Assembly (NCBI GenBank): GCA_023053545.1
Contig: JAKZAN010000002.1
Coordinates: 4,076,375 to 4,140,374, forward strand
Direction: 5' to 3'
Length of the DNA: 64,000 bases
From: Lepidurus packardi
Lineage: Eukaryota; Arthropoda; Branchiopoda; Notostraca; Triopsidae
This document shows, piece by piece, positions 4,601 through 43,700 of the stretch; the stretch's first letter is position 1; each line of letters opens with the position of its first letter. The notes under the pieces are model-generated. The model was not told the DNA's origin and searched no databases. It worked only from the letters and a program-made list of their open reading frames with translations. The position numbers and the translations under genes were made by a program.

Positions 4601-4648
4601 CGATTTAGAGGAATTTTGTTTACCATCCAGTGAGCTACAGGTTGCACC

Positions 4649-5932
4649 ATGTATAATATCCTTGCGGGATTCAAGGAATATTTCCGGCGCCAAGAGATTG
4701 TGACGGATAATGCCATCTTCCGTCTTTATTACGTTTTCACCACCGTGCTGTTGATGATCTTCTCGATCATTGTGACCGCATCACAATTTGTGGGCAATCC
4801 GATCAATTGCATCAATGATGGTGATATTCCGATCCATGTAATTAATACGTACTGCTGGATTTCCTCAACGTACACCATGCCGGATGCCTTTTATCGGGAA
4901 GTTGGTAGCGAAGTGCCTCATCCGGGTTTGGCAGCTGGTTACCATCCCCACGAAACTCGCAAATACTACGCCTATTATCAATGGGTCTGCTTTGTGCTCT
5001 TCTTCCAAGCCCTGATATGCTATATACCGAAATGGCTATGGGATGCTTGGGAAGGAGGTCTTTTGAGCACCGTTGTTATGGGTCTCAATACTGGATTGAA
5101 GACATGCGAAGAACGCGATGCCAAGAAGAAAGTTCTCATAAGTTACCTCTTGCAACACTACAAAGTAAAGCCCAATTTCTACAAAAGATTTTTAATCGAT
5201 TTTCTTTATTCTCATCCTTTAGCAACACAATATGTACGTTCTAAGGTACTTTTTATGTGAAGTTTTGGCACTCGTGGGAGTCGTGGGGCAACTCTACTTG
5301 ATGAACCGCTTCGTGGGCGGCGAGTTTTTTTCGTATGGACTTCGCGTGTTATCTCATATGGAGCAAGACCAAGAAAAACGCTTTGATCCTATGGTGTACG
5401 TCTTCCCACGTGTAACGAAATGCACTTTCCACAAATTTGGTCCTTCTGGCACGGTAATTTTCACTATTTGACAAGACCTGGTAAACAATGGAATTTATTC
5501 ATTTATTTTTATGGACGCTTAGATCACTCGCCACGATTCCTTGTGCGTATTGCCGCAGAATATCATAAACGAAAAGACATACATCTTCCTTTGGTTCTGG
5601 TTCATTCTGATGGCCACGTTGTTGTCCGGTTTGGTACTCTATAGAGCATTATTGATGTCAGTTCCCAAATTACGTCCACTGATTCTCCACGCCCGTGCTC
5701 GTTTTGTACCCACAGAGGTAAGAGATCGAACAAAGGTTTGAAATGTGTGGTGGATTTAAGGTTTTTGTTTGTTTTATTCTTCTAGGTGGTGGATGCCATA
5801 TCCAAGAAATGCGAGATTGGAGATTGGTGGCTGCTATACATGCTTGGACGCAATCTAGAACCCATGGTATACCGTGAAGTTGTTTCTGAATTGGCCAAAA
5901 AAGTGGAGACCTACGAAAGTAATAACGCATGA
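4649..5932 (+). CDS. inx1: Innexin gap-junction channel protein, Inx1/ogre-like (4 exons)
   Basis: Coding exons are 4649-5164, 5223-5453, 5523-5717 and 5786-5932 (TGA stop at 5930-5932). All three GT-AG introns are phase 0 and only 58, 69 and 68 nt long. The product is 362 aa, the usual innexin length. Innexins form invertebrate gap junctions in the plasma membrane and pass ions and small molecules between cells. Diagnostic marks: the YYQWV motif at residues 109-113 opening the second membrane segment; four membrane segments (about 28-48, 111-130, 180-200 and 270-290); and two conserved cysteines in each extracellular loop (Cys54/Cys69 and Cys239/Cys257). The motifs MPDAF, LMNRF and [12 protein letters not shown] match arthropod Inx1/ogre better than Inx2 by eye. 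The start was chosen because MYNIL aligns with the family N-terminus. I am confident of the family and less so of the paralog. Confidence 0.95.
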
Positions 5933-11469: not shown

Positions 11470-11501
11470 GAAATAAATACAATGCAAACTTCTAGGGAAT
11501 A
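11470..11501 (+). repeat. Left fragment of dispersed repeat copy 2
   Basis: The bases just left of the Tigger element (GCAAACTTCTAGGGAATA) match copy 1 at about 6650-6669 (GCAACCTTCTAGAGAATA). This shows that the transposon landed inside the repeat. The outer limit of the homology is uncertain. Confidence 0.75.
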
Positions 11502-13654
11502 CAGTGGAGTCCACGTAACTTCCACTCGCTTAGCGTCATAACTCGCTTAATGTCAATCTTCAGTCAAGTCCCATTTCATTCCCATTGAAATTCAATGGAA
11601 ATAGACTCGTTTTACATCGACTCTCTTAACGTCATAACTTGGGTTTTCTTCATACTGTTGTCATTCCCCATCGGGTATCTTACAATGATAAGTACGTTCG
11701 GTTAACATCCGACCGTCATGCGCAACAGAAATCCTAAGAAAACATCCTAAAAAGTGGGACGATGAAATGACCTATTCCAGGAAGCGCTTTCGGAAGCTCA
11801 TTAAAAAAATGTATTTCATAACAAGGCTAACCTTTCACCTCTTACAAACTTTCACCTGTTACAACAGTTCTGTCTTTTTCGATATTCTTAACAGTAGTTC
11901 TCTAGTAAGGGAGACAGTAAAATGTCTAAGCAGAAGTGTAAAACTTTAACATTAGCGCAACGTGTAGAAGTTATATCCCTTTTGGATAAAAACGATACCC
12001 AAGTGTCAATTGCGAAAAGGTTTGGTGTTGATCAAGGAGTGATTTCAAAAATACGCAAGAACAAGGAAAACATTTTGGAAGACTGGCGGAATAACTCCAA
12101 TCCAAACCGGAAGCGCAAAAGAACTGGAAAATCGGAAGATGTAGAAGAATCTTTGCTGCGATGGTTCAGCCAGGCTCGAAGCAGGCAGCTACCTATTAAC
12201 GGACCGCTTTTAAAGGAAAAAGCCGAACAACTCGCAAAAGATCTTGGTGTAGATGACTTTGTCGCAACAACTGGATGGCTCGATCGGTGGAAGAAAAGGA
12301 ACAACATCGTATTCAAGAAACAGCATGGAGAAAAGCAAGATGCCGACGACGTGGTTGCAGAAAGATGGGTAAAAGATGTTCTGCCCGACCTGATCAAAGA
12401 TTATAAACCACGCGATATTTACAACGCTGATGAAACTGGTCTCTACTGGAAGGCGATTCCGGATGGAACACTAACTTTTAAGGGATTAAAAGTTTCGGGA
12501 GCTAAAATATCCAAAGAGCGTATAACTTTACTGCTGGCTGCAAATATGGACGGATCCGATAAACTGGAGCCGCTCATAATAGGGAAAAGCAAAAAGCCGC
12601 GATGTTTCAAAGGTATAAAACACCTGCCCGTTTTATATGAAGCAAACAGCAATGCGTGGATGACTTCGGTTTTATGGGAAGAATGGCTCGGTAAGGTTGA
12701 CCGCAAAATGAGACTCGAGAAGCGCAAAATACTTTTGCTGTGCGATAACTGTACGGGACACACGAACAATCTTCGCCTCACAAATGTGAAGCTTCTTTTC
12801 TTGCCACCTAACACAACATCCGTAATTCAACCTATGGACCAAGGCGTCATTGCTTGCTTCAAGCGACAGTATAGATCACTTATTCTGCGACAGCTGGTTT
12901 CGATCATGGATAATGAAACTGGCACACGAGCTGCGGAGCTGGCTCGAAAAATATCGCTTCTAGAAGCTCTTCACATGGTACGGGAAGCTTGGCGCAAAAC
13001 TAGTGCGACAACCATTGCTAACTGTTTCCGTCATTCTGGAATAACGAAGGACTTGCAGAATGAAGAAGCTGGCATCGCCAACGTCTTGCCGAATGCCTCG
13101 GAAGTCAACACTTTGGAATACATGGACATGACCGAGTTCAATCTCTTTGTCGCTATTGACGAAAAGCTCCCAACAGAGAGCGAAGAATTCGAGCCTATTG
13201 CCGTGTCGGTCACAGGGAACGACGATGAAGACGTAAACGACGATGAACCTCTGCCACCTCCACCGTTGATGGCTGTAATCGAGGCGATACATACTATTCG
13301 TCGATACGCTGAAGTTACCGGTTTCACCCCGTATGAGAGACTATACGATTTGAGAGCTGACCTGGACGTTCACAGCATAAAGAAGGCTAAACAAAGATCA
13401 ATAACAGACTTTTTCTTAAAGAAATAACTTTTAAAGCAAAATACTGTAACTTCTGTCTACGTTAAGAAAACTTATTAAATTTATATTAATGATACTGTAT
13501 ACTTAATACACGCGTCTGAATATCTATTATTGTTTTTTTTTCCTCGTCAGTATTTCTGGTTGTGAAAAACACCCACCTCGGCTAACATCCTATCTCGCTT
13601 AACGTCATACTTACTGGTCTGTCCCGAGCCCATGAACTTAAGCGAGTTCCACTG
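11502..13654 (+). mobile_element. Complete Tigger/pogo-type DNA transposon (Tc1/mariner superfamily)
   Basis: The element is 2153 bp. It begins CAGTGGAGTCC at 11502 and ends with the complement of CAGTGGAACTCGCTTAA at 13654, the typical start of Tigger ends. A TA target duplication flanks it (11500-11501 and 13655-13656). Sub-terminal copies of CTCGCTTAA/AGCGTCATA motifs recur inside both ends (11525-11640 and 13575-13645) and are likely transposase-binding repeats. It encodes one intact transposase and interrupts an older dispersed repeat whose uninterrupted copy at 6640-7540 shows the empty site. Intact reading frame and clean ends suggest a recent, possibly autonomous insertion. Confidence 0.95.
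11922..13427 (+). CDS. Tigger-type transposase (CENP-B-like DNA binding plus DDE_1)
   Basis: This uninterrupted 501-aa frame has an ATG start with no introns. Domains in order: an N-terminal psq/CENP-B-type helix-turn-helix (about residues 5-55, AKRFGVDQGVISKI); a second Tc5/CENP-B-type helix-turn-helix (about 75-140, with GWLDRWKKRN); and a DDE_1 catalytic domain (about 165-380). The likely metal-binding triad is Asp170 in YNADETGLYWK, Asp275 in LLCDNCTGH and Asp306 in QPMDQGVI, the order and motifs usual for Tigger/pogo enzymes. The C-terminus ends KQRSITDFFLKK, a PIP-box-like peptide often seen in pogo relatives. The enzyme cuts at the element ends and integrates at TA. All catalytic residues are present, so it may be active. 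Function is known from the family; activity is inferred. Confidence 0.96.
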   Translation: MSKQKCKTLTLAQRVEVISLLDKNDTQVSIAKRFGVDQGVISKIRKNKENILEDWRNNSNPNRKRKRTGKSEDVEESLLRWFSQARSRQLPINGPLLKEKAEQLAKDLGVDDFVATTGWLDRWKKRNNIVFKKQHGEKQDADDVVAERWVKDVLPDLIKDYKPRDIYNADETGLYWKAIPDGTLTFKGLKVSGAKISKERITLLLAANMDGSDKLEPLIIGKSKKPRCFKGIKHLPVLYEANSNAWMTSVLWEEWLGKVDRKMRLEKRKILLLCDNCTGHTNNLRLTNVKLLFLPPNTTSVIQPMDQGVIACFKRQYRSLILRQLVSIMDNETGTRAAELARKISLLEALHMVREAWRKTSATTIANCFRHSGITKDLQNEEAGIANVLPNASEVNTLEYMDMTEFNLFVAIDEKLPTESEEFEPIAVSVTGNDDEDVNDDEPLPPPPLMAVIEAIHTIRRYAEVTGFTPYERLYDLRADLDVHSIKKAKQRSITDFFLKK

Positions 13655-14550
13655 TACAAGTCAATGGGCAATGGGCGAACCGTCAAATTTCTATAAATCG
13701 AACAAAAGAAGGATGCTATCCTCACACTGTACACTGTCTGAGTCCATACATTATAGTTATAGTTTCAACATGTATATAATATAAGTCCATGACCGCGTGG
13801 ATAACTCGCACGACTGGGGACCCAAAGGTCCTCGGTTCGATATCCGGTCGAGGCACTTTATTTCGTCGAAAAAACGAAATATTTAATGGCTCCCTTTCCC
13901 TGTACCATATGCCTTCCCGGCAAGGTTCCTATTCCCATATTCGAAATTGTGAAGCTTCGGCATTACGAGCTCGAATATCGTGGATAGGAAACCGAGCAGG
14001 GGAGTTGGGAACAGGGAAAAGGGGCGAGGCTCTCAATTTTTGACGATTTTTCAAGGGGACCCCCTTGATCGTGCAGGGATCCTTATGGAAAAAAGCCCAG
14101 AAAACGCTGTCCCAGCTCGAAAAGGAGCCACGCCCACTTATTGGCCCAATCCACCAATAGGATTCGTCTATTTGTAGAGGCCACACCCTTTTGGGCAGAT
14201 ATTTTGAAAATATCGCAAAAATTTCGCAAATTTTCGCTTTTATTTAAAAAAAAATAGAAACCGTAATACAAAAAGGACATTTTTGGAAACTAGATTTTAC
14301 GGGGAACGTTTTGGGCACAAGCAGTAAGGAATTCCGGTGGAGAGCAAACACCTAATTTCTATAACCTTACAATCCAACTTCTGAAGCTAAGAAAAGTCAC
14401 AGAAAAATCTTCCAACAGATTTGAAAGGCTGAGCGATAGAGCAATGTTTGAGAGGATAAGTTTTACAAACAGAGCAAAAAACTGGGAAAATAAGCGTTAC
14501 AATTCTTCTCAATTCTCAAATCTGCTACAATAATACAAAGTTAAACCCAA
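13655..14550 (+). repeat. Right part of dispersed repeat copy 2, with tRNA-like segment
   Basis: Homologous to 6668-7540 of copy 1. The tRNA-like part is 13791-13855 with B box GGTTCGATATCC at 13834. The core 13931-14170 is nearly identical to copy 1, while sequence on both sides has many substitutions and indels. The minus-strand open frame 14186-13929 is a by-product of that conservation. Confidence 0.8.
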
Positions 14551-15445
14551 AAGCTGCCAGGGCCCTTCCTGTGTCAATCTTGTCTTACAATACAAACAGC
14601 CGCAGTTTAAAGGTTAATAATTGATATGTAATGCATCTACCACCGTTTTGCACAGCCAGAAGATCCATTGGTACGTGAAAAGGAGCAGGAATCTTATTGA
14701 GTGTCATTCAACAGCTTTCTCCTCTTTCCGTATATACCCAACCAGAAAGCCACGAAAGTTAAACAACACCTATGGTAAACACATTAGGTCTCAAATTCAT
14801 CTTTCTGAAGTACATGACAGCAGATTTTATATTACCAAGAAATTGGTGCAGTTACGGCTGTGGCGCAAGTTATTCCAGCTTTAAATTGCACAATCCAATA
14901 ACTTATAATCTTGACCGTGATACAGCAATCTTGTCCGTGGACACAAGGACACTTCGATAGAAGAATGACATGTACCTAGCCTTCTCAGGAGCCAATGGCA
15001 TAGCGAGTTGAGGAAATCTCTGCTCATTAGCTCAACACGCAGCGATTCAAATATTTTTAAAACCGCATTAATAATTCTGTCATAAGGACGACGGAGCCCG
15101 ACCTTAGGGATCCCGTAAATATGTAAACAAAATAAGTTTTGTACTATGATTGATAACGTTGACGTTTACTGGACGCAATGTATTGGATTGCAGTAGACAC
15201 AACAACGTCGAGTAATAGAAGGTATTGCAATAATTCTCGAAAAGCGTAGGTTTTTTTTAATAAACCAGTTATAAATTCATTATCTCCCTTTTCTGAAAAA
15301 TTAGCAAATTAAGAAGCCCAACGCGCAATTTCAGGTTTGGTTACATTACGATTGCCATTCCCTAAATTAATGGAGCATAAAAGAAAAGACTTTCTTATCA
15401 AGAACGTTATGTACAGATCCTCTTTCCCTTCCTTTGGTTACTTAA
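14551..15445. other. 3' flank of the kinase-less DDR-like gene
   Basis: No gene recognised on either strand. In particular I looked on the minus strand for kinase motifs (VAx[20 protein letters not shown]) that would extend the DDR-like gene and found none. A minus-strand ATTAAA at 15261-15256, about 185 nt past that gene's stop, is a candidate polyadenylation signal. Confidence 0.45.
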
Positions 15446-15526
15446 TTAAAACGCCGTCAACTGTACCATATTAGCTGTCATTGGCCTCGTAATTTCCATG
15501 GCAAGATCCCCAGATATCTCAGGTAA
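15446..15526 (-). CDS. Terminal exon of the kinase-less DDR paralog
   Basis: The acceptor TTTTGTAG precedes 15526 and the frame enters in phase 0. It codes for 26 residues and then TAA at 15448-15446. It aligns with exon 11 (34716-34591) of the full-length DDR gene: LPEISGDL with VPDRGELL, and TANMV with AENMV. In the full-length gene NMVV is followed at once by the start of the kinase; here NMV is followed by five residues and the stop. Reading on past the stop gives no kinase remnant. If this exon were skipped by intron retention, the frame from the previous exon would still stop after seven residues, so no kinase results either way. Confidence 0.75.
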   Translation of the reverse strand, partial: LPEISGDLAMEITRPMTANMVQLTAF

Positions 15527-18500
15527 CTACAAAACAATAAAAACTCTCAGTATTTCGTTCAAAAGTTTAACCTTCGACTCACATTTAAAATATCTGTCGC
15601 CGCGTAATGATTTTCCTTTCTCTGCTTGTCTCGGTCTCTCCAAATATGAGGCTGCTTGGGGTACGCACCACGGCTGAGAGTAAAGACTACCGCAGGCACC
15701 TCGGAGTCGATATCACCTGCACACAATAATTCGATTACAACTCGAATGAAGTCAACGTCATACCGACCTGAGGATAATTGATTAGCCGTGGTGGCTAAAT
15801 GGCACCGAGGGGAATTTCGCGGCAGTAGTGCCCCATACTCAATATCAGAATCTTCTTGTTGTGGACCTAACTGGCATCCCGGATAGGGCTCATGGTACAA
15901 GAAAGAAGAGGATTCGCTTTCTGACTCCGGAAGACCCAGTTCTTGGCTACGACTCTGCGAAGTGGAGTGATAAGTGCCGGTAGGTGTCAGGAAACGGCCC
16001 GATCTGTCTCTTTCGGGAGTATTGCACATGGCAATGCTGCTCATGTGACTGCTGGGAGACACTTTGGGAAAATTAGCTGCTCTACGTCGGCGTCTCAAGC
16101 CAATTATGGCCACAACAATTATGGACATGACTACTATTGCTGTTGCAGCACCTGCGACTGGCTGTGTCCAAGCTGTGCTTTCAGATTCTATAAAAAAGAA
16201 TTTATTTAAGGTTAATAGCCACTAACAGGGGACAAAAAGAGTTCTATAAAATAAAAATAAAGACTAAATCTTATTTCTTTTTAAATTTTTCTTTGCCTAT
16301 TACTTAATCTATTAAAGAAATAAGTATACGAAAGATCACGCGGCTTTCTGATGCGAGTATCCACGGCATCATATTAACTGCTTTAAGTACATAAACAAAC
16401 AGTAACCATGGTAATACCTACGTAAGCTACGCCATGACACGGGCATGACGTTACGATCTAAAGTTTACATACCAAAGTTTGGGAACTGGTATTAAAATTA
16501 AAAAAAAAACAGAGTTCTTAGAACAACTAGACAGAAGCATACATTAATAGTCCAATATGTAATTTTGGTAGCTATTGCCTTTTAATAATAAGTTATTTGA
16601 AATTTGTATGAAGCTGTAATTAAATAAAAAGGGCTTTTGAGTTCATATCATACCAGCATTGGTCGAACTGAAAGTACCGAGCGTAGTTTCTTCGTCCACA
16701 ATCAAGAACCGTTGCATAGACAGATAACTACTTTCGTTGAGCATTACACTGTCTAGAGAGCAGAGGAAATTAACACCCGGTTCTCTAATTTCTTCTCAAA
16801 GTTTACTTGCAGCGAAAGTGACTTCCGTGAGAAGCAACAGACTCTCACTGTATCGAAGTTGAAACCTCACAAATTTCCCAATCCGCTGTCTCAAGGGCAC
16901 CGTCAAATTCAGGCTACCGTCATTGCTCGTGTAATGTAGCGCATTGGGATAGTAGACTTCTCCATCCAGACTAAACTCGATTACGACTTGCAGTACCTAG
17001 AAGGGAGAAAAGGAAAACATAACCTTGCATTTAATTCAATTAAAAGGGAGATAAAATATGGTTTCCTTTAGCCGTACCGAAGGAAGCGGCTTGACGTGTC
17101 TAGCAGCCAAGAAGAAGGTAACGGAAGTGAAGACGTAAGGTTGAACAAACTCAAAAACGAGCCATACAGGCTCCTGTGCTTGAACGTTAACCAACGGCGG
17201 TTTCCCAACAGCGTTGGAAGCTTCGTTAGCTCCATTTTCCTCTTGAGCATAGGCTAATACTGCCGGAGCCAGTAGCCGTCCATCGACTAAGTGTCCCAAT
17301 CCTCCTTGGTATGCGTGGCTCGTCGCCATCACTCCATCGTAAGCTACGTCTTCAAGCAGTAGCATGGACGGGGTCCCCGTCCCATTACTAGTCCCTCTGG
17401 ACACTGCGTAGGAGCGCACGCCGTCTGCTCAACCAATAATAACATCATCACAAACCATTGAGTAGCGTGTAAGTTTAATCGAGCTGCTCTTTTCCCAAAA
17501 AACTTACCGGTATATAAACATCCGTACAACTCCACACGCATACAAGCCGTCCTCGGATGTTGACTATAGGGAATAAACCGCACTCTTTGGGCAATGAAAG
17601 GCAACTCGAGAGTTTGCGTTTGAGCAAGCCAAGGATTCCAATTCCCTCTCAGTACCTACGATAGCCCGAGACGGAAGATTTAGGACCCAATATATAGGTT
17701 TTTACTGCTATTCCTAATGTCCATCTTCCTTACATCTTCACTTCGGGAATCCTTATATCGAACCCATCGATTCAAACTTTCGCGCCAATACTCCAACAGA
17801 AAGGCTTCGGCAAACTCCTGGCCTTGTCCGTTACCGAATCTGCCTTGAGTTTCCACGGCAGTAATGCGATATTCTGTATTCAACACAATCTCCAACCACT
17901 CCTTCACGTTATGCTGAATAGCCGGTCGGGGGCACCAGGCACCACCCCCTCTCTCCACCCGAATCCTAACCCGAAATATGGAAAGGATGGTTAGAGAAGA
18001 GCCATAACTTATTCCTGGCCAACCTTTGACTTTAATCAACTGAAAATCATAATGCACACATCTAACAAAAAGGCAATGAGAATGAGATTGGGAAACTACT
18101 AAGGGAGCATTCATTTGCATCAAGTCAATCTGATCCCAAAATTCCCCTTCCTGTTCCTCATGAATACGACGCCAAAGGCCCCGGCACAAGCAAAACGCAT
18201 AAGCAAACGACATCGATCGACACCTTCATCATCCTCCTTTACTTGCGCCTTTCTCTTCTGCATAAGAACGCTTCCCTTTGTGCCTTCCGCTGTTACCTGG
18301 GCCAACACTGGCCAGCAAGGCCGGTTCGATCGATGGATCAAAAACCCAGATTTCCCCCTCCCAAGTACATTAAACCGATGATGTATGATTCCTATCATTT
18401 TTTCTTACTTTTACTCAAATTTATTTAGTTATTTATACCTGCCATATTCCGGACCCACACTCCTCGCGTAGGACGACGAAGCCGACAACGCCGAATCCGG

Positions 18501-19154
18501 TATTAAGCCTGATTCCATTCCCAAAGGCGCATTGCAAACTAGTTTGTCTTCTTCTACAAAAAATGAATAAACTTAATAAGGCAAAACGTAAAATGTAGTC
18601 TGTAAAGCAACAGCCACCCCAAAAAAACACACACTTCACTTTAAAAATAGCGCAAAAAGTATAGTTCCTCATGGTAATCTTTCTCTCCATTATGCCCAGC
18701 GCAGTAAAATGAGCTACTAAAAAAATTGTAAATAAATCGTTTATCAAAACCTCAAGCAGCAAGGTAAAGTAGATTTTGTTATTAAGATATTTTTTTAGAA
18801 AAATAATTATTCAATTATCTCTTTCTGGTTCTTTTAATTTCTTGTTAAAAGTTTATGAAATTACATTGAGAAAGGTTATGGCACAAGTGCCCTCTTCTGG
18901 CCAAAACATTATCAACTACTTGCACTACACCGTGGCCTTAATGAACCTCATCCGTATTAAACTTAAAAAAAAAATACGTCACGAAATGTTTCATACCACA
19001 AAAAGCTTAGGTCAAGATTACCCCATGCAGAAACGGCTTGTAAAGTAAGACAGGATGAAATACGATCCAGGTACATACCTGTTGCGTTAATCATAAAGAC
19101 AGTAGCTATCGCCCACATAAAAACATACACTTCCCATCGCCAGGACGCGGTCAT
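15446..19154 (-). CDS. Kinase-less discoidin domain receptor paralog (10 exons, 613 aa)
   Basis: Coding exons, 5' to 3' on the minus strand: 19154-19079, 18553-18439, 17965-17734, 17655-17508, 17424-17078, 16996-16807, 16752-16654, 16187-15768, 15716-15583, 15526-15446. They sum to 1842 nt with no stop inside. Residues 1-25 are a signal peptide. About 33-187 form the collagen-binding discoidin domain ([25 protein letters not shown]) and about 190-370 the discoidin-like domain (DVAYDGV, GGLGHLVDG, a glycosylation site NLT). The membrane segment is about 413-433, followed by RRRRR. The roughly 180-residue cytoplasmic tail has several tyrosines (TYHS, LYHEPY, EYG) and no kinase. The last exon, ending in TAA, resembles the exon that precedes the kinase in the neighbour at 31119-43737. 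Likely a plasma-membrane collagen receptor without catalytic activity; decoy or dominant-negative function is inference. Confidence 0.9.
16370..16600. repeat. Fragment of ACGTCA-type inverted-repeat element in an intron
   Basis: Lies in the 466-nt intron of the kinase-less DDR paralog. It shares AAACAGTAACCATGGTAA, CCATGACACG and TAGCTATTGCCTTTTAA blocks with copies near 38.7, 40.9, 51.7 and 63.5 kb. It is a diverged copy of a short interspersed family. Confidence 0.55.
19079..19154 (-). CDS. Signal-peptide exon of the kinase-less DDR paralog
   Basis: The ATG at 19154-19152 opens 25 codons with a hydrophobic core (VYVFMWAIATVFMI), then a donor ACAG|GTATGT in phase 1. The exon is 76 nt, the same length and phase as the signal-peptide exon of the neighbour (43737-43662). 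An in-frame ATG further upstream at 19256 is separated by a strong acceptor-like CTCTTCACAG ending near 19206. That suggests a 5' untranslated intron, so the downstream ATG was chosen. Confidence 0.75.
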
Positions 19155-31118: not shown

Positions 31119-34100
31119 TCATGACGGCGCATAGCCCAGATTCTTGCGTTGCAAAAACAAATGGATTTCGCGGAACGTTGGGCGTTCAGTCGGGTTCTTC
31201 CGCCAGCACTCGCACATCAAATCGTAAATGTCTCGCGGACAATGGGCAGGTTTCTGCAAGCTGACGTAGGACGCGTGGTCTACACTGGCTAAGCGTTCCA
31301 CGTTCTGCACCACAGCTTCGTCACTCAATTCCGCGTATGGTCGTTGCCGGGCCATCACTAGAATTTCCCACAAGGTGACAGCAAAGGCCCACACGTCACT
31401 CTTCGTTGTGTATTTGCCCTACAACCCCATGAAAAGAACGAAAAAGAAGAAACATGAAATTAAGTTCCCCCCAAAAAACCAGCAAGAATACGAAAGTTAT
31501 CCGGCAAGTAGGCCCAAAAGTTTCGAGGTCTCGTAGAGCAAATCAGAAAGTCTTTTCATTAGATTCGGTGAGCGGCGGCAAACAAGCCTCTTGTCCCAAT
31601 TGTTTTTTCAACGCCGAAGAACGCGAACGAAACCAAAAAGGTTTTCCATGAGAGACCGACAGTTCCTTTGTGTCAACACGAGGATATTGGAACTGAACAA
31701 CGCTCTTCTTCTACTTACCCCCGTGACTCGGCCCAAAATAAGACATGTCTTTCGCTTTTACACGGAGGTTTGCCCACAAATAAAGCGAAGGAGAGAAAAG
31801 AAAGTGCGAGAAGAGCATCCTTACCTGAAGTAGAGATTCCCAAGCCATCCATCGTATGGGTAGACCCAGGGTTTGATCATCCACTCTGTAATAATCCATG
31901 ACGTATGCGTCGGAATCGGTTCCAAAGTCGCAAATCTTTATCTGCAAGGCTTTTCCCACCAATACATTCCTACGAAACATAGAAAACATAGAAAAAAAGT
32001 CTTATAATCCTAAAGGATTCAGGAAGCATGACATAACACAAGCTCATTAGGAGCTAATCAATCCAAACAATGTAATGGATAACTGAAAAATATCGGTATC
32101 CGTGCTCTGTGACTCCCCACGCATTAGCAATGACCAAAACTCTTCGACTTTCCTGGAGCGCAAGCGTAAATGTGTTAAAAAAAAGAATCCAGAGCAAAAA
32201 GAGGCATCGCATTCCACTTAAATCTTCCGTGAAGAGGAGAATAGTATGGGGAAAACGAAGAGAAAAAAAAAAGAGAAAAAAAAGAGAAAATTCCGCCCTG
32301 CACCTGCTTCATGGAATACACTTTGAAAATGTGGATGGCAGATCATGTAACTGCGGTTTTTCTGCTCCACAAACCGACCCCGAACTTTAGCACAAGAGGG
32401 GGACAGGGGGGATGGAAGAATTATTAAGGATGTCTTCATAAATTGTCCATTAAAAGTCTTCAAATGACTCATGTCTTTCCCTCGGTTCTTCTCTTGGAAG
32501 TACCGAGTTCCTCTCTCTCTTTCTCTGTCTCTAGTGTGTAGCTTGCTGGCAAAGGAAATGGCACGCTGCCATGCGTTCTTTTTCTTCTCTCAAGTTAAAA
32601 AGCGTTCTTGGAGTTACAACAATAGTCAGCAAGACGTAGGGAGTTTCGTGGAATGCCAATCTACGGTGCCTATTTTAACTCTTCCTTCAACACCGTCTCT
32701 TCGCCCCCTTGGGGGGAAAATTTTTCCGTTCGTTGCGTGGTCGAAACAACTAAGAACTCCGAAACTTCCACGAAACTTGTAACTTGTGCTCGGCTCCTTG
32801 CCTCACATTAAGATTACCTGACTAGCAATGACTAAAGGGCAAAAGACCCGATTTAAAAAAAATATATAAATAAAGAAATAAATTTAAAAAATCGTAATTA
32901 CCTGGCGGCGAGATCGCGGTGCACAAAGTTGAGGGCTTCCAGATAACGCATACCGGAGGCGATTTGTCCCGCCACGTAAATCAAGCTCCCCAAACTGGCA
33001 CAAAAAAAGAAGACACACATTCATAAACGACATAGGACTTCGTTCACCACAAATCATTTAAAATGCTCGGAGACTCCCTCGCCAAATTTCGGGGAGCATA
33101 ACGGCGAACTACTTTAGCTCCAAATTTACAACTCGACTCCAGAATAGAAAATGACAGAAGGCAGGGGAAATGAAATAAAAATGAACCCCTCCTTTTTCTT
33201 AATTTTTTATTTTTGAAACCTTGTTTTCCCTTTTACCTGAGAATGTCGTCGTTGGCGATTCCGGGCTTGCCAGAGAGATTGGAACGGCTACCCAGCGCCC
33301 CACCCACCATACCGGTACTTCCGCTATTGTAAATATGATTGCTGGGATCAGTTACCAGACGTCTGGTACGCAGGAATTGATGCAAATCGCCGTGTTCCAA
33401 GTACTCGAGCACGACGCAAAAAGGCTCTTCAGCGGTACAGACGGCCAAGACGCGGGACAAATTGACGTCATCCAGAGCAGCTAAGAGCCGCACTTCTTGG
33501 TAAAAGGAGACTCTGTAGCGACAACCAAAACACGAAAAGCCATAAGTTAACCACGCATACGCAATCACCCATAGTCTTATAGACATACGCAGAGATTAGT
33601 ACTATTCTTTCAAAACGAGCGCCCAGGGACGTGGAAGCTATTAACATTACGAAACTTGCTCTCCAAATTGAACCTGTAGCTCGTCGATCAATGTCAAGAA
33701 ACTTTAAACCCCTTCCAGACAATCCATGACAGCGAAAAAGCGGAGCAACGATAGCGTAACATAAACAACCTTCTTATACACAAAAAGTCAAAGAAAAACT
33801 GCCCAACAAATGCTCTGGGGCACGGTTTTTCAAAAATAGGAACTCAAATAAAACCGTGGGAGAGCATTTTACGGGACTAATAACACAACACAAGACTAAA
33901 ACATTGAATTATATGGTCCATGGGTGCCAATTTTCTTGTTCAAATCATAAATAAAACGACTCCTAGTGTCAAATCCCCGCATTAATACTTGTTTTCTTTC
34001 TTGTTTTTGTTTTAAAGAAGTTTAAATCACAGGCTTTTATTGTTTGTTATTCATCTTGGCACACTAAAATGCATCTGCATCTCGCTTTTCATCCTCTTAA

Positions 34101-34716
34101 ATACTGGACATGATTTATAATGATTGGAGTTAGCTTTTCTCGCGCTTGGAACGAAAGACTCCTAAACAAAAACATCCTGCACAAAACGCCATGTAAGATG
34201 TATGCCAAAAGGTTTACAGTCAACGTAACTCGATCCCAATGTACAAAAAGTTGTCTCGGTGTATACGAGACAGCGAATTGCCATTGATGTATCCCTACCT
34301 GTCTTTCTCGGAAGTGTGTGGCAAGTACTTGGCGGCTACCAAGCGCTTGGCTGCTGGACATGTGGCGCCATAATCTGGGATGCCTTCAGCCTCCGCAGTG
34401 TACACCTGCGAAAAACGGAATGCCACTCTTAATTAGCCTTTTCTTATCTCCCCTGCTCCGCCCCAGCAACGGTGCAGAGCGAAGAGCCCGAACGCTAAGG
34501 AAAACATCACACATCAAGCGTCGCCGTAATAAAAATAAAAATAAGAAGCTACAAAAGCTACACCCTTGCCAGATAAGAAATGTCACTTACGGTGCCAAAC
34601 GCGCCGCTAGCAATCCTCGTATGCAAATGGAGTCGGTGACGTGGCAATTCTGGCACGACCATGTTCTCCGCTCGCACTCGCAAGGCGGCCAGCAACTCAC
34701 CCCTATCTGGCACGAC
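31119..34716 (-). CDS. Ddr: Kinase-domain exons (11-16) of the DDR gene
   Basis: Six exons carry the tyrosine kinase domain. Exon 11 (34716-34591) ends in the glycine loop, exon 12 (34405-34299) has the ATP-anchoring Lys722, exon 13 (33512-33237) has the alpha-C glutamate region ([10 protein letters not shown]) and a Gly/Ser-rich insert typical of DDRs. Exon 14 (32994-32902) ends in the catalytic loop HRDLAA, exon 15 (31969-31825) has NVLVG, DFG and the YYR activation-loop motif, and exon 16 (31418-31119) has [12 protein letters not shown] and the stop. All catalytic residues are present, so the kinase should be active despite the altered first loop position. Confidence 0.93.
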
Positions 34717-37700
34717 CTAAAAGCACAAAGAAAAAAAAAACGAGCCATGATCACGGGTCAAGACTACACTGTCATAACCTTGCGACTCTTGTGTGTAAAA
34801 TCGCAATGAATAGGGAGAAACATAAATCTTTGTCGTATCAAAATTTTCGTTCAAAATTTCTTCATCTCAATGGAAATACAAGTCATGAAGAAATGCAGGC
34901 GGAATGTAAACAATGAGGCGAGGCCAGTATTTCTTTTCCCCTGATAGACAAGGAACACTAACACACAGTCAAAAAATAAACAAATACCTTCTTGGCGGGC
35001 GATTCCGTGCTTTGACTGCCCTTGGAAGAATTCCGCGACACGAGGCTATCTTTGTCCTTATCAGATAAGGAAAGTAACGGCGGTGGCGGACTCGCAGCGG
35101 GCGGTGATGGATACCGCTGAGGCGCTCCATTACTACTCCGTACTTCCGGCACCGCGTAATCATAGGTATCTATCAAAGCAAATAAACTGTGTTTTTATGC
35201 CGTCATAACTCTCACCCTATAATATAACAATCCCGTCCTCTTCTCTTTTCTGCTATGTATATTGCACTTATCCCGTCCACACTATTAGGCTACCGACGTT
35301 TCCCATAAGGTCAAGCGGGAACTCGTAGCGTTACTTCGCTCTGCCTTACTGCCACACTATTAAGCTCCCGATGTTTCCCAAAAGGTCAAGCGGGAACTCG
35401 TAGCATTAGTTCGGTCTGCCTTACTAGTAGCACTAACAACGCAATAATGAATCATGGAAAAGCTGCCAAGCGAATAAACCGGGCAACTCTTGAACATAAC
35501 CGGGTACTCGTACGCTTTCTCCGGCTTTATGGTTACCAAACTTCGATTGGTAGCTTTTCTTTTCATTTTTGGGACCGAAATAGTAACATTGTAATTCTCT
35601 TTTACTTCCTCTTTAAGTTCCCAGGTTTATTTCCGTCTTTTCCCAGGTTTATTTCCCTCCTTTTCCCAGGTTTTATTTCCCTAATCCGGAATGAAAACCG
35701 CAGCCTAAAAACCACACAAACGATGTGGTTTACCCTCCGAAGAAAACTCACCTGAGGCTAAGTGATGAACCCGACCTCGATCAGGGGATTCGAGGCCTCC
35801 GCTGTGGCCGTTACCGGCTAGAAGCAACGTACTATAGCTGTAATACGGCGAAAAGCGCAGGGCGTGATACGGCTCCTGGTACTCGACCGCTTTCAACGGA
35901 ACGCCCTCGGGGCACGCCACAAAGCTGCCCATGGTATGAGATGTCCCGCCCGCGTGATGCAGCAAATGATTGGCCGTCCCAGCAGCGGTGGCGCTCGGGT
36001 CTGTCAACCGGACTTCCGCGTACGGTAAAGACCCGGCTTTGGAGAGCAACTTGGAGTGGGCCGTACTCCCTATCTCGACTCCCATCAAGGGATCGTGATG
36101 ATGCGGGTGCAAGCGCGGACTGCCCGAGGCCGTCGAACCCCATAAGGATTTGGCCGGTAAAGGACTGCCAAGGTTTTTGCGATGCCGGTGCCGCCAGATC
36201 ATGAAAAAGATCGCGGCAGCCAAGATGAAACTCACGGCTACCAAGATGCCGATCACAATGGCCAAATAAGCCTGATTGTCCCCGGCCGTAGGAGGGGTAG
36301 TGGGATCTATAATCCGCATTGAATCAAAGTTAAAAAAAGCTTTTAGATCTCCAAAGGACTTTTGATCAATACTTCTCACTTTAGCCACCTACGAAGTGCA
36401 GAAAAGAACCTTCCTTTACATTGAGATATAAGAAATTTCAAGAAATACTTCTTATTCTATTTTTTTCTCATCTTGAACCAGATAAAAGTGCTAAAAAGAA
36501 CCTTCCTTTACACTAAGATAGAAAAAATTTCAAAAAATACTTCTTATTCTTTTTTTAGAGATGAAAGTAAAAAAAAATAAAAAAAGGGAAGTCATTTTTA
36601 TTTTCATAAAACATATCTTGTTGCGGTAGGAAGGCGATCAAGTGTGCTTACCTTGGGGATGAGCCGAATCGGCAGTAGCAGCACCTACGCCCCACAAAAC
36701 TTCAGGCTGGAGTTGTGGTGGCGTCAGCACGGAAGCTGTCGAAGTAGCCAGTTCGGCTTCAATCTCAGACGTATAATTACGAGCTGCTGCCTCTGCAAGA
36801 AAGTTTTTTTTTTTTTTGCTTTAGCCACAATTAATTCCAACTGTTTGAGCCTAAGATGAGTTCCCTTCGCTTTCTTTATAACAAGCTTGTGATTTTTTTT
36901 AAATTTTTTTTTTCTTAAAGAGACGAGCTAAAAGGCCAGGAAGGGAGATTGAAAGTAGAGAAAATAGAAGCATACCTGAGCGGAACGACACTTCGCTGAT
37001 GAGGATCCAGCGCGATGCAAAGAAGAGGCGGAGCTTGACAAATCGCCCAACACGATGATGAAGTTTGACGGAAATATTGCGAGGCGTCTCGAAAATGCGG
37101 TCTTCTTGAGGCAGGTACGTAATGGGCTCGCCCGAGTAGACACGCCCACTTAAGCTAAAGAGCACTTGCACTTCCGAGAAAACCTGCCATGGAAAGTGCA
37201 GTAAAAGGATATTGCTAGGAAATGGTTTCGAACCACACAGGTAGAAAAATACTATTAGTGTTATTATTACTACTCCTAATAATAATAAAAATAATAATAA
37301 TCTTAATAAATATTATTAAATAAGAAAAAGAAAAACGATAAGAAAAATTAAAACGAATTGGAACTAGAATGAGAAAAAGATTACTTTTTATTATGCAGCA
37401 AATGAATAAGAGTAGTTAGAAAAAAAGTGAAAATTAAAGAAATAAAAAAATAAACTTTGACTTACTTGTACTTCCCGCATAAACTGATTATTGGCGTAAA
37501 GACTGAGCAAGGTGAAATCTCGGACCGTATCGAACTCGAAGACGATCTCCACGGGTTGGCCCTGGCGACTATCATTCTTCCATCCCACCCATCCCAGAGC
37601 TAGAAAGACGTATCACCCAAGAACACAAACATACATAAGTAAGAAAACGTAACAAGACCAAAAAAGAGGAAAAAAAATGCGGCGTTGCGTTCCAACCTCG

Positions 37701-40700
37701 AATCATGAATCAATGCCATCACTAGTATATAGAGATTCGCATGCTCTCATAAATCACTTCGTACTTTCCCTCCAGGGGGTCCCATCATCTTTTTCCCCCC
37801 CTACCCCCCCCCCCCCCCCCCCCCCCAATGCCAAGGAAGAAAACCCAGGCAGGCAAAATTGCAAAAAAATATAATAATAATAATAATAATAACAACAACA
37901 GAACAAAATAAAATAAAGCCGTAGGAAAAACAAGCTTTATCGACCAACAAAGTCCTTAATACCTCGGTCGTGCTCATAGTAGCCATTCTTGAAGTTATCA
38001 GGGCCCAATTTGGCATCGATGAGTTGGCCTAAACCTTGGCGTAGTACATTTCCATCCCACACGCCATCATAAGTCGCGTCGTAAAATTGCCATCCTGATC
38101 CACGCTGATCACCTTGTGGCATGGAATAACTCACGATTCCCTCTACAAACATAAAGAAAAAAAGTAATAAATTAATATAACATGATCTAACATTCCACCA
38201 GAAACCAAGCCTGACCACACAATCGTTAGTTTCTGAACACGAAAAAGCTCCATTCGCATTTTTAAATTGTTTAAAAAAAAAGACTTTTCGGGGAAAGAAA
38301 AATGATAATGTACCTGTCCAAGGGCATCCATAAATCTCCACGCGCATGCAAACGGTCCTACGGTGATGACTGTAAGGTAGAAATCGCAATCGCCGAGCCA
38401 GAATGGGCGGATCCAAGTCGCGCTTTTCAGCCAAATACGTATTGCTATTTCCGGCCAATACCTGCAAAAAAGTTTGAAACTCAACTTAAAACGCAATTAC
38501 TGCAAAATCAAACCTTTATCCTACAAAACGAGCAAAAATAATATATTTTCTAATGATATTTTTCTTTTCATAGTATTTAATAAGTGCTACGTAAGTACTA
38601 CTATAGTAACTACTGAAAGCTATTTCAAAAATTGTATCAAGTAGCTTTTTCGAGTCATAATGTATCGATATCTATACTCGAGAGCTTTGTTTACTATTTG
38701 AAGCACTTGAGTAAATAGTAACCATGGTTACAAACGCGTAAGCCATGCCATGATACTTTCGTGACATTTATGACCCAATTTTCCATGCGAATAACTCGTC
38801 ATCGTATTTCTTGAAAGATTTGAAAGAAAGACTCGAAAGCAAAGATTTGAAAGAAAGTTCGTCGCTTTTGAGATCCGTGTAGCCAGCAACTATCGTACAC
38901 AATCGCAACATGTGATTTCGGTGGCTATGTCGTATAATGCAATTTCCGTCTAACATGTAGATCCAAGTTAATAAAGCAGAGAGAGAGCAAACATCCCAAT
39001 AGTTTCGAGGTAAACTTGAGAGCATGGAATCATGTCACGTTCAACATACTAAGTAGGTCAATCAACAAGAAACCCAAGTGGCTATCTTTCTTTCGTATAA
39101 TACGTCCAATTAGGACAATCAATTCCTTCATTAGCTTATTTTTTCGTGTGTCTAGGCTAACTATACACGTCTCTTGTTCTTTTCCCAAGTTCCTTGAAGC
39201 ATCCTTACCGCAGACTCTGTCGACTGAGCTCCGTTTATTTTTGCATCTTTTTCTTCGGCAACTTCCTATTTTTTCTCTCTTATACCCAGCTCATGCATTT
39301 TTTATCTCTTCATCTCAATGATATTTATGCCACGAGCTTAAGTGCATGTTGGCGTGTGTCAAGAAGTACGACAAATTCTCCATTCGCTTTTCTTTTTTTG
39401 CTTTTCTCTACTTTGTGAAGATTCTTTGTTTTGTGTTTCGCTTCCTTTTCTTCTAGGGTGCTGCGCTATGCTCTGCCTGGGTCCCAATTACTATTCAACG
39501 GGAAAACAAGCTCAATGCGCCCATTTAAGACAAGTCCTTATAGTTCCCCGACACGAAAGAGAGAAAAAGATCGAACACGGGGAAAATGATCGTCACGCAC
39601 ACATACACAACTACACGGAATAAAAGGATGCGACTAAAACCGAAAGAAAATCAGAGTTTAGTACCTCTTGTAAAGAAAATAAATACCACACTCCCCCCCC
39701 CCCCCCCCCTTCTTTTTTGCTTTGTAAGGTTGCTTGACGCACCACAGCATCTTCCATCATCGTGCGTGTAATGCAAAAAGGGTGTGTGCACACGGTTCAA
39801 GAAACACGCCCACTAACGAGCCCCGCAACTCTCCCCTTCCATCTTGTCCTGTGCTCAAGACCAGGATAAATTGAAGAATTCAAAACATAATGTGTGCTGT
39901 GATGGCCACGCATGGGGGGGTTGGCGCTCAGCTGGAAGCTTTGAGCAATCATCTATATAGCTTTATGTGTTGGATGCAACAACATACACCAACAACCCCT
40001 GCATCCATATGATCAAAGCTATTCCAACTTGTATAGCCAAACTTGTCGAAAGCCAAAAGCAGTGGAATTAACAAACGACCTACAGAATCATAAATCTTCC
40101 CATGAAACAACAAGAGCCTAAGCAGGACTCAATAGCTCCAAAACTTCGCCTTCTTAATTGGCAAAAGGCAATGCTCATTACGCTCTCGCCAACACCGCTT
40201 GCAAACATAACATTTTCATTTCAATCCCAAATAAGCGTAATTTGTTCATTGCCCAGCTAAATAAATAATGCCGCACACAGCAACTACGAAAAAAACATGA
40301 ATATGAACCACGCCGAGTTTATTCTACCCTTCTCACCAAGCTTAAACTTAAACATAATATAGAATTCTTGAATGAAAATTCTCTCCAAAAAGAACATGAA
40401 ATGAACCTCGCCGACTTTCTTCTTACCCTTATCACCAGGCTTAAACTCAAACATAACACAGAATTCTTGAAAATAATGAATATGTAAAAGAAAATATTCT
40501 CCAACAGGATAAACCCCTTCTCACCAGGCTTAGACTCAAACATCATACAGGATTCTTAAAATAATAATTCTTGAAGAGACAGTTTCCTCCCAAAAGGAGA
40601 ACTCCCTACACGTGTAAAAAGGAACATTCCTTTCTAAAAAAATTCTTGAAGGTTTAAATATTCCCACGTTGACCTAATGAACGGAAACCAGAGACCAACA

Positions 40701-43700
40701 TCAAACACTATTAGCAAACTTGAAATGCAGCCTTGATCCTGAATAAAAAAGAAAAGAATTCATTTGGTAACTTCTAGAAGGTCGTTTCTGACGTCACACA
40801 CGCGTCCATTAACACGGTATCGAAAGCTTTGTTTACTGTTTCTAGCACGGAAATAAACAGTAACAATGGTAAAGAAGCGCCTTAAGCCACACCCTCACAC
40901 GTTCGTGGCGTCATGATCCAAAGTTTGAATGCCAGTAACTTGTGAACGGCTAATCAGAGAAGATGTGAAAGAAAAATTCATCCTTCTTAGCCTCCATCAA
41001 AATCTCAACATGTGATTTCGAAATTGGTGGCTTGGCCCTTTAACAAATGCTCCTGCTCTCAAGTACCAGGATCTCCAACTCCAAGAGTACTCAATCTCCA
41101 AGAGCATAAAACCTGGCAAGACTACCAAAAAAAAGCGCAAACCGGTGGATGGGATTACAAGACACTTCCCTCCTTTTCCTTTAGATGATGTCTCTCTACA
41201 GTAATAAGGCCGTGCGAGCAACTTGAACTGAGGATTGCTCAAGGACGTCCTCGACTTGTCCTGTGCGTCCTAAAGAGCATATCAATATGGACGTCGTTAA
41301 GGGCTTTCTATATCGCCAGCAATCCTCTAAGGGAAGCCCACAAATTCGATATCTTTTTTTCTCTCTCTTCGACATGTTTTGCCTTTTTTTGTATTTTTCG
41401 GTTGCTGTCCTTTGGAGTGATGATATGTGGCTTATTGGTTAGGAAGCTGTGCTTCATGGAGAAGGCTTGTGGAAGAAGCTTTTCAGCACCGCCTTAGTTT
41501 TTCTCATCCCGGAGAGTTCGCCTTCTTGCTTTCCGGCTTCTTATTACTGCCGAGCGGAAGAAAAGTTCCAAGTTTTTGGTAGACGCAAAAGCTTGTTATT
41601 TTGGTAGTGGTGGTGGCGGCTCCCGCACAAGAAAGCATGTCATGTCAAGGCGTGAAAAAAGACTTGGCCCCTCAAAGACGACCATTTCTCCAAAGGTTTT
41701 TTTTTCCACTGTGAAAGTGAACCAAGTGCAAGGTTCTTCTTTCTTTGCTCTCTTTCCTCTGCCGCTCTTTAATTGAATTGTGACGAGACCTGAAACTTTT
41801 TTTCCCTTATTTACTTCGTTCTTCCTTTTACTTCCTCCAACACTAAGACCCCCTCTTCTTCGAAGAAAAATAAAATACACAAATTCTTTGATGATCATGC
41901 CCCCCCTTGATCTAACCAGCATTACTTTCGAAAAATCCTTCAATATCATTAGCATACACCGTGAAAGGAAGCAAACCAACAAGTTACCTCATCGCTTTTC
42001 GCGTCTTTGTATCGCACCCATTTGCCCAAGGCATCGCGCCAATATTCCAGCAAAAAATGCTCCGCAAATTCTTGTCCTTGGCCGTTGCCAAATCTGCCTT
42101 GGATCTCCACTGCAGTCAAAGTATGCACCACATGCAAATCCACCTCCAACCAGTCACGTGGCTGATGAGTCGCTTGTTGACGTGGGCACCATGCCCCACC
42201 ATTGCGTTCCACTCGCACCCTGAAATGAAAAGAATAAGACATTAAACTCCATCCAAATATCCCAAACTAAAATAAAAACAAAAAATAAAATGAAAAAAAA
42301 CAATAAGACATCTATAGCGGGGTAGGATATGATAAATTGACAATTTCCTTTCCTCTCTCTCTGTTTCTCTCCCTTTCACTGCTCCGCCTAATACAAAAAA
42401 GGAAAATATACAAGGTCCTGGCAAGAGAGTCAGCGAGTCCTGAATAAATAATTGCTTTCCATTATTCAAAAACCTCGCAACACCTGACCCTCACACTTTT
42501 GGTGTGCTTTTGGTCTCCTAAACTTTTTACCTATGCTTTGGTGCAAAGCGTATACGGTAGACCTATGTATATATATAGAAAAAGAAGGAGAGGAGCAAAA
42601 GTGAGAACAAAAGGTCGGGCCACATGCACCCCCTAATTTTTCATCTGACAACGCGAACCCCATTTCTGACAATACGCTCGCCTGCCTATTTTTTTATAGT
42701 GCTTTATTCTATGCCCTTTTTCCCTTAAAATAAGAAAGAAAAAAGAACAGTCTAGAATAGTGCGAACACTATTCCTACCTTGCTCATGCATGTGTAATGA
42801 CAGGAAAAATTCGAGCAGACCTGAAACTGTTTTTTCTTTTTTAAAATTATGGAATAATTCGGTTATGGAATAATTATAATTATAATTATAATTATAATAT
42901 AATTATAATATATAATTATAATATATAATTATAATAATAATTATGGAATACCTCGCATTGTGTGGGCCTACGCTCGCACCATCGAAAGATGAACTCGCTG
43001 TAATATCCTCATCGCGAATTCCCCCGGATTCCATACCCAAAGCTCCAATACACTGGCCTGGAACGAAAGAATTACCAATCAAATGAATTTATGACACGAA
43101 TTTTAATTAAATAGAAGAAAAGATTCAAATAAACTACTTCTTAGGTTTGAATTAGATTAAACTACGGACTAGAAGTGAAGTTACTTATTGTTAGATTTCT
43201 TAACTAAATTCAACTATATATATATTTCTTAATTAAATCTCTTAGATTTCTTAACCAAATTCAACTGTATTTATAACTGTATACATAGAAGAATCGGATG
43301 AAGTGCACAGGAGTAGAATTAATGTTTAAATTAAGTGAAAAAGTATTTTTTTAGATTTTAATCCAACTAATTTAATTCAACAGAAGAATCGAACTAATTA
43401 CTATTCTATAGCATTTCTTTAGAATACAATAAACTAAATCCGTTTTAGATTTTAATATAAGCCAGTTACTGATGCGTTGTTACTATAGTAATGGAATCGA
43501 ATGAGAAAATGACGCGAAAAATAGTCGTATGAAATTGCATAATAATAACTCAATTCTTAACGCTTATTATGGTTTCTCATTGCATTTGGGGATGATTTGG
43601 GAGTAATATGTGGCGTTACGGCTACACGGAGTGCTAATAAACATAACAATAGGCTACTTACTCGTGTCCAATGCGTGTGCAACTGTGAAGGTCCATTGGC

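Follow-up and report, generated by a model that had tools for sequence, protein, structure and literature searches.

An intact discoidin domain receptor gene without a kinase beside a full-length family member in Lepidurus packardi

Why would a genome hold a discoidin domain receptor (DDR) gene that has no kinase, from what did such a gene arise, and what might its product do? The question is raised by a gene, here called B, on the minus strand of a 64,000-nucleotide stretch of Lepidurus packardi DNA (the window; positions 4,076,375 to 4,140,374 of contig JAKZAN010000002.1, here C2, in assembly GCA_023053545.1; coordinates are those of the window unless they carry the prefix C2 or are given in Mb). 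Judged from its sequence, B is an intact receptor gene that derives from a DDR, lacks a kinase and shows apparent constraint in its ligand-binding domain. It belongs to a family of five. A search of the assembly with the Pfam model PF21114 gave 13 exon matches, and all 13 fall in five loci on C2. Two of these, A and B, lie in the window; the other three are E (10.40-10.41 Mb), C (11.18-11.19 Mb) and D (11.20-11.21 Mb). Genome-wide statements refer throughout to this one assembly. Its 266 candidates for the cuticle family Chitin_bind_4 were scored in part, and all 150 of the scored ones match the family, as suits an arthropod.

Gene structure and the missing kinase

Gene B was rebuilt from the sequence as ten exons running from 19154 to 15446 on the minus strand, with GT-AG borders at every intron, which together encode 613 amino acids followed by TAA at 15446. 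The intron phases (1,2,0,1,0,1,1,1,0) are consistent throughout, and no stop or frameshift interrupts the ten exons. When the ectodomain and tail of paralog E were threaded through the region, the score was 854, while 60 dinucleotide shuffles gave at most 83, so the exon chain is not a product of chance. The original prediction of an intact ten-exon, 613-residue discoidin, membrane and tail gene is borne out by this control, by the phases and by the Pfam matches given below. Exons 1, 7 and 10 lie outside the E-guided alignment and therefore rest on splice signals and frame; the same alignment reads through intron 8.

All exons are on the minus strand. Exon 1 (19079-19154), set by its GT donor and frame, carries the ATG and a signal-peptide-like stretch (residues 1-25, hydrophobicity judged by eye). 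The discoidin (DS) domain begins in exon 2 (18439-18553; splice sites, frame and E-guided alignment), continues through exon 3 (17734-17965) and ends in exon 4 (17508-17655), the last two being 232 and 148 bases long in all five paralogs. The DS-like domain that follows starts in exon 5 (17078-17424), a single exon that corresponds to two in the models of the other four paralogs, and ends in exon 6 (16807-16996; frame, Pfam and E-guided alignment). A 39-base in-frame piece of exon 5 (17388-17350) was excised by the E-guided alignment and is taken as an insertion in B. Exon 7 (16654-16752), placed by splice sites and frame only, would encode an extracellular juxtamembrane linker. Exon 8 (15768-16187) holds the transmembrane segment and the first part of the tail with its YHEP and EYGALLP motifs, and exon 9 (15583-15716) continues the tail with HYAATDIL. 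Exon 10 (15446-15526), placed by splice sites and phase only, supplies the final 26 codons and the TAA at the point where a kinase-bearing DDR continues into its kinase. An ATTAAA polyadenylation-like hexamer is found on the same strand 185 bases beyond the stop (15256-15261; a pattern match, weak as evidence).

Pfam identifies two domains in the protein, F5_F8_type_C (PF00754; residues 49-184, 65.4 bits, 7e-18) and DDR1-2_DS-like (PF21114; residues 192-368, 66.6 bits, 3.1e-18). The best PDB match is human DDR2 (6.8e-41), followed by DDR1 (8.3e-39), in each case chiefly through the discoidin domain. There is one hydrophobic segment, with a hydropathy peak of 2.76 at residues 413-431, and from the RRRRR that begins at residue 434 a tail of 180 residues extends to the C-terminus.

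A Pfam scan of the 613-residue protein detected no kinase domain, and the search was carried 25,445 bases past the stop (the remaining 15,445 of the window plus a further 10,000). On the minus strand of that region the kinase models of the four other paralogs scored 135-151, which is the level of shuffled sequence (means 139-157, eight shuffles each). The same models gave 152-167 on the plus strand and 89-125 on the minus strand of the interval between B and A, values that are similar or lower, both scored without shuffles. With tblastn, matches to a kinase below E = 1 over the window and the 10 kb beyond were confined to gene A, at 31.1-34.6 kb, and the count of N across both is zero. Tblastn, threading and the absence of N together rule out, within 25 kb, a kinase that escaped notice downstream or fell into an assembly gap. 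Alternative splicing was also considered. The 51 bases of intron 8 (15717-15767, minus strand) keep the frame and contain no stop; the intron may be retained, which would add 17 residues to the tail for a protein of 630; reading through exon 9 with intron 8 retained meets a stop after 611 residues. Neither variant tried reaches a kinase. Because threading and tblastn both fail to find one, the kinase is missing from the B locus rather than skipped in splicing, within the reach of these searches, and the earlier claim that none is encoded or detectable downstream stands.

Origin of gene B

B had been described as lying in tandem with a full-length DDR about 12 kb upstream on the same strand. 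As a matter of position this is correct, the distance from the last kinase exon of A (31122) to the ATG of B (19154) being 12.0 kb on one strand; as a matter of descent it is not, since B is closest to E. Over the DS domain, identity with B is 72-74% for E, 59.6% for A and 47-48% for C and D. A DS tree joins B with E (approximate likelihood ratio test, aLRT, 94.1; ultrafast bootstrap, UFBoot, 91), and the split recurs at 99.9/100 in a full-ectodomain tree of the five genes. The idea that B is a tandem duplicate of A is ruled out by both identity and trees. The DS tree does not settle A against C+D (7.2/45), and C+D itself reaches only 91/73. A kinase tree failed to place E, A and the human DDRs firmly (60.4/59) and was left out of the ancestry argument. 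Gene E spans about C2:10404.6-10411.6 kb, and the position of B beside A, with E 6.3 Mb away, is not explained by the B-E ancestry.

The tails of B and E have in common a block, YHEPY...EYG-L-P, that is 53% identical across 36 codons. Three residues after the ATD/TTD motif, both genes have an intron at the identical place and in phase 0; the intron preceding it is phase 1 in both and roughly equal in place. These matching introns, together with the 232- and 148-base discoidin exons found in five of five genes, argue that a kinase-bearing ancestor was duplicated at the DNA level and that the kinase exons were afterwards lost in B. The DS-like region of B has one intron fewer than that of the other four paralogs as modelled, an apparent intron loss in B. 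Automatic spliced alignment set the opening seven residues of the E ectodomain model and some DS-like splice ends in A, C, D and E, and these are possibly wrong; the model of gene A begins after its first exon. The C and D models were E-guided for the DS tree and the pocket alignment described below, and A-guided for the relative-rate analysis.

Constraint on the ligand-binding domain and tail

Across 152 discoidin codons compared between B and E, 64% of third positions differ, as do 18% of first and second positions. Nonsynonymous divergence (dN) is 0.20 and synonymous divergence (dS) is saturated, because of which we claim no dN/dS ratio. Relative-rate counts of B-unique v E-unique changes in the DS domain were 10 v 12 with A as the outgroup, 10 v 7 with C and 15 v 8 with D (chi2 0.2, 0.5 and 2.1, respectively), and with none of these three outgroups was there a significant excess of change in B over E.

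The tyrosine motif Y[HQ]EP is present in the tails of four of the five paralogs (A, B, D and E), and YAATD/YATTD in three (B, D and E); the scan used unspliced frames, in which motifs interrupted by introns would escape. The human DDRs presumably carry YQEP and HYAEADIV at the positions that match the motifs in the B tail.

For the ligand pocket the reference is human DDR2, in which collagen contacts involve W52, T56, D69, R105 and E113 as well as the C73-C177 bridge (PMC2807035). A DDR2 ectodomain with W52A loses collagen binding; the matching DDR1 mutation was without effect in an earlier study (PMC2807035). Counted by hand in our alignment with DDR2 numbering, R105, E113 and both cysteines are retained in all five paralogs. 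In all five, Y or F stands in place of W52, V in place of T56 and G in place of D69, the residues in B being Y, V and G. With the same replacements throughout, B departs from the human DDRs just as A does. Collagen as the ligand of B and its paralogs is unproven on this sequence evidence, and so is the sharing of a ligand among them.

The kinases of the other paralogs

Kinase exons were found in A, C (C2:11183059-11184209), D (C2:11202103-11203475) and E (C2:10404644-10406779), and all four joined models score above the Pfam kinase cut-off; the A kinase used here omits two residues that the automatic model had placed in a spurious four-base exon. Motifs were read from an alignment with human DDR1 and DDR2, in which the lysine calls lie in a gapped stretch and are alignment-dependent. 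HRD is retained in all four, and the lysine has become arginine, as aligned, in two (E and C). The A kinase retains the lysine (VAAK), the helix-C glutamate, HRDLAARN and DFG, with a glycine loop of ASGAFG instead of GEGQFG. The E kinase is full-length and keeps the glycine loop, with VAVK changed to VIAR, FLKE to FLRD and DFG to DFA as aligned. C has VLVR, DIA, the glycine loop GTCKYG, and SAVW in place of SDVW, while D keeps the glycine loop, lysine and glutamate and has HFG in place of DFG. By motif, one kinase of the four looks canonical (A), and E, C and D, whose kinase domains are all full-length, are predicted pseudokinases. Most of the DDR family in this animal may work without catalysis.

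Possible roles of gene B

We tentatively favour the reading that B has been maintained as a non-catalytic receptor that descends from an E-type kinase-bearing DDR and is equipped with a ligand domain, a membrane segment and a tyrosine-bearing tail, and would put its probability somewhat short of even. The gene structure, the absence of the kinase, the E ancestry, the DS constraint, the common tail motifs and the altered kinase motifs of E, C and D are directly supported, and we infer from them that B would be expressed, bind a ligand, associate with A and become phosphorylated. A duplication at the DNA level would have produced the B and E lineages, after which the B lineage would have lost the kinase exons and one DS-like intron. 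It would have retained the constrained discoidin domain for its ligand, the membrane segment and the tyrosine-bearing tail, and its product would possibly serve as a substrate ('receiver') of the A kinase.

Human DDR1 offers a precedent, since a signalling-dead receptor is phosphorylated on a juxtamembrane tyrosine by an active neighbour after collagen (PMC5489314). The receiver's own kinase activity is dispensable, DDR2 as well as DDR1 can be the donor for a DDR1 that is defective in signalling, and DDR1 trans-phosphorylation requires the transmembrane domain (PMC5489314). If dead DDR1 can be phosphorylated by its neighbour (PMC5489314), then by analogy poisoning may not be the sole possible outcome for B. 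As B has the parts of a receiver by sequence and A those of a donor, we prefer a receiver or co-receptor role to that of a decoy, with modest confidence. Extended to the whole family, the catalytic A would serve all four non-catalytic receptors, the three pseudokinases and the kinase-less B, which would bring different ligands, tissues and tail substrates to it, a scheme that we consider speculative and rather unlikely.

Several observations weigh against a receiver or co-receptor. Given the transmembrane requirement in DDR1 (PMC5489314), it is unfavourable that the transmembrane sequences of B and A look different by eye. Between B and E, the transmembrane segment and tail are 31% identical over 178 codons. 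In the gap-rich alignment of the DS-like domain, relative-rate counts with A as the outgroup were 32 for B v 14 for E (chi2 7.0), a difference that is less clear with C (24 v 13, chi2 3.3) and absent with D (22 v 19, chi2 0.2). Set beside the DS counts, which show no significant excess, these raised counts indicate that the ligand-binding domain has been kept and the DS-like domain has drifted; the greater DS-like change in B fits lost signal coupling as well as it fits a new role.

The role first proposed for B, that of a decoy or dominant-negative partner which lowers A signalling by binding matrix ligand or by pairing with A, seems to us possible though doubtful. A constrained DS domain next to a drifting DS-like domain, with the kinase missing, would suit it, and a kinase-less truncated DDR1 is unable to serve as donor kinase (PMC5489314). 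A plain decoy needs no tail, however, and B keeps about 180 residues with the tyrosine motifs of the family; moreover, dead human receptors do get phosphorylated inside clusters (PMC5489314), and the replacement of the three DDR2 pocket residues in every paralog leaves it unproven that B and A share a ligand.

Matrix adhesion or mechanosensing, independent of any kinase and not acting through A, we regard as unlikely. It would fit a family that acts mostly without catalysis, as the impaired-looking motifs of three of the four kinase-bearing paralogs (E, C and D) may indicate, but the retained tail tyrosine motifs suggest that B would be phosphorylated. There is little to recommend the view that B is a decaying gene, its kinase gone and the remainder persisting by chance or barely expressed. 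The DS-like change is higher with outgroups A and C, and the W-x-GWK segment of that domain, common to A, C, D and E, has been lost in B; against this, ten exons have stayed free of stops and frameshifts despite saturated synonymous divergence from E, and DS change in B is not in significant excess. It would surprise us greatly if a kinase exon were present but missed (far downstream, trans-spliced from A or concealed by assembly error), for although exon 10 is backed by splice signals alone, the window and the next 10 kb contain no N, the kinase models stay at shuffle level over 25 kb of the downstream minus strand, and an innexin exon on the opposite strand occupies the downstream region.

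The activation of DDRs through clustering and inter-dimer phosphorylation was established using engineered inactive mutants of human DDR1. Here, receptors that look catalytically dead occur naturally beside a single kinase that looks live, and they would make a natural test of whether such proteins are substrates, decoys or adhesion receptors. Kinase loss is complete in B, and the motifs of C, D and E have changed in different ways, which suggests that kinase function was given up by several routes.

Relation to known receptors

The original prediction was unaware of any described arthropod gene of this type. One is on record in Drosophila melanogaster, namely CG34380, which we take to be the gene called smoke alarm (smal). 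A 2013 study of dipteran receptors reported CG34380 as a DDR paralog without a protein kinase domain (PMC3863949); its CRISPR mutants are lethal, and the gene has been tied to thermal nociception (PMC7193564). CG34380 and B are both arthropod DDR-homologous paralogs that lack a kinase, a likeness drawn from the published description of CG34380. D. mojavensis has duplicate collagen receptors (PMC3863949), so the fly may have lost the kinase recently, or its annotation may be incomplete.

Human DDR1 and DDR2 resemble B in the DS domain, part of the DS-like domain (DDR1), the membrane segment and the long juxtamembrane tail; they differ in having a kinase and in the pocket residues W52, T56 and D69, which are Y, V and G in B. 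The mammalian splice forms DDR1d and DDR1e are C-terminally truncated and without kinase activity (PMC4789497). Like B they are kinase-less, but they are frame-shifted splice forms of a kinase gene (PMC4789497), whereas the B locus shows no kinase exon to skip, with threading at shuffle level on the downstream minus strand and no tblastn match. The closest paralog, E, has the common tail block and matching tail introns and differs from B in keeping a full-length kinase domain, with altered motifs. Barnacle DDR2 has been listed as positively selected, and kinase loss goes unmentioned in the available part of that paper (PMC7077169). A limited search of open-licence literature gave no report of a genome in which four non-catalytic DDRs accompany a single catalytic-looking one, and among the matches listed for Daphnia or crustacean discoidin and kinome papers, none is by its title on such genes. 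A kinase-less arthropod DDR is not new in kind; the combination of one catalytic-looking with four non-catalytic DDRs is the more unusual part.

Neighbouring and other sequences

Outside C2, many small contigs (C138, C144, C167, C179 and others numbered C73 upward) have discoidin or kinase frames, among them a 922-residue frame on C138 with five F5/8 matches; these contigs are possibly contaminants from other organisms.

In the window, gene A is on the minus strand. Its ectodomain exons (36968-43052), obtained by spliced alignment with E, lie at 43052-42952, 42219-41988, 38461-38314, 38142-37963, 37599-37504 and 37170-36968. The transmembrane and juxtamembrane exons fall within 34642-36280, with YQEP at 35881 (frame reading and motif scan), and the kinase exons, with the motifs described above, within 31122-34641.

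Downstream of B, on the opposite strand, is an innexin (gap junction) exon at 4634-5260 (+). A Pogo/Tigger-like DNA transposon occupies 11500-13656 (+), 1.8 kb beyond the end of B. Its transposase frame is open over about 500 residues (DDE_1, HTH_Tnp_Tc5 and CENP-B_N) and lies between imperfect terminal inverted repeats at 11500-11522 and 13634-13656.

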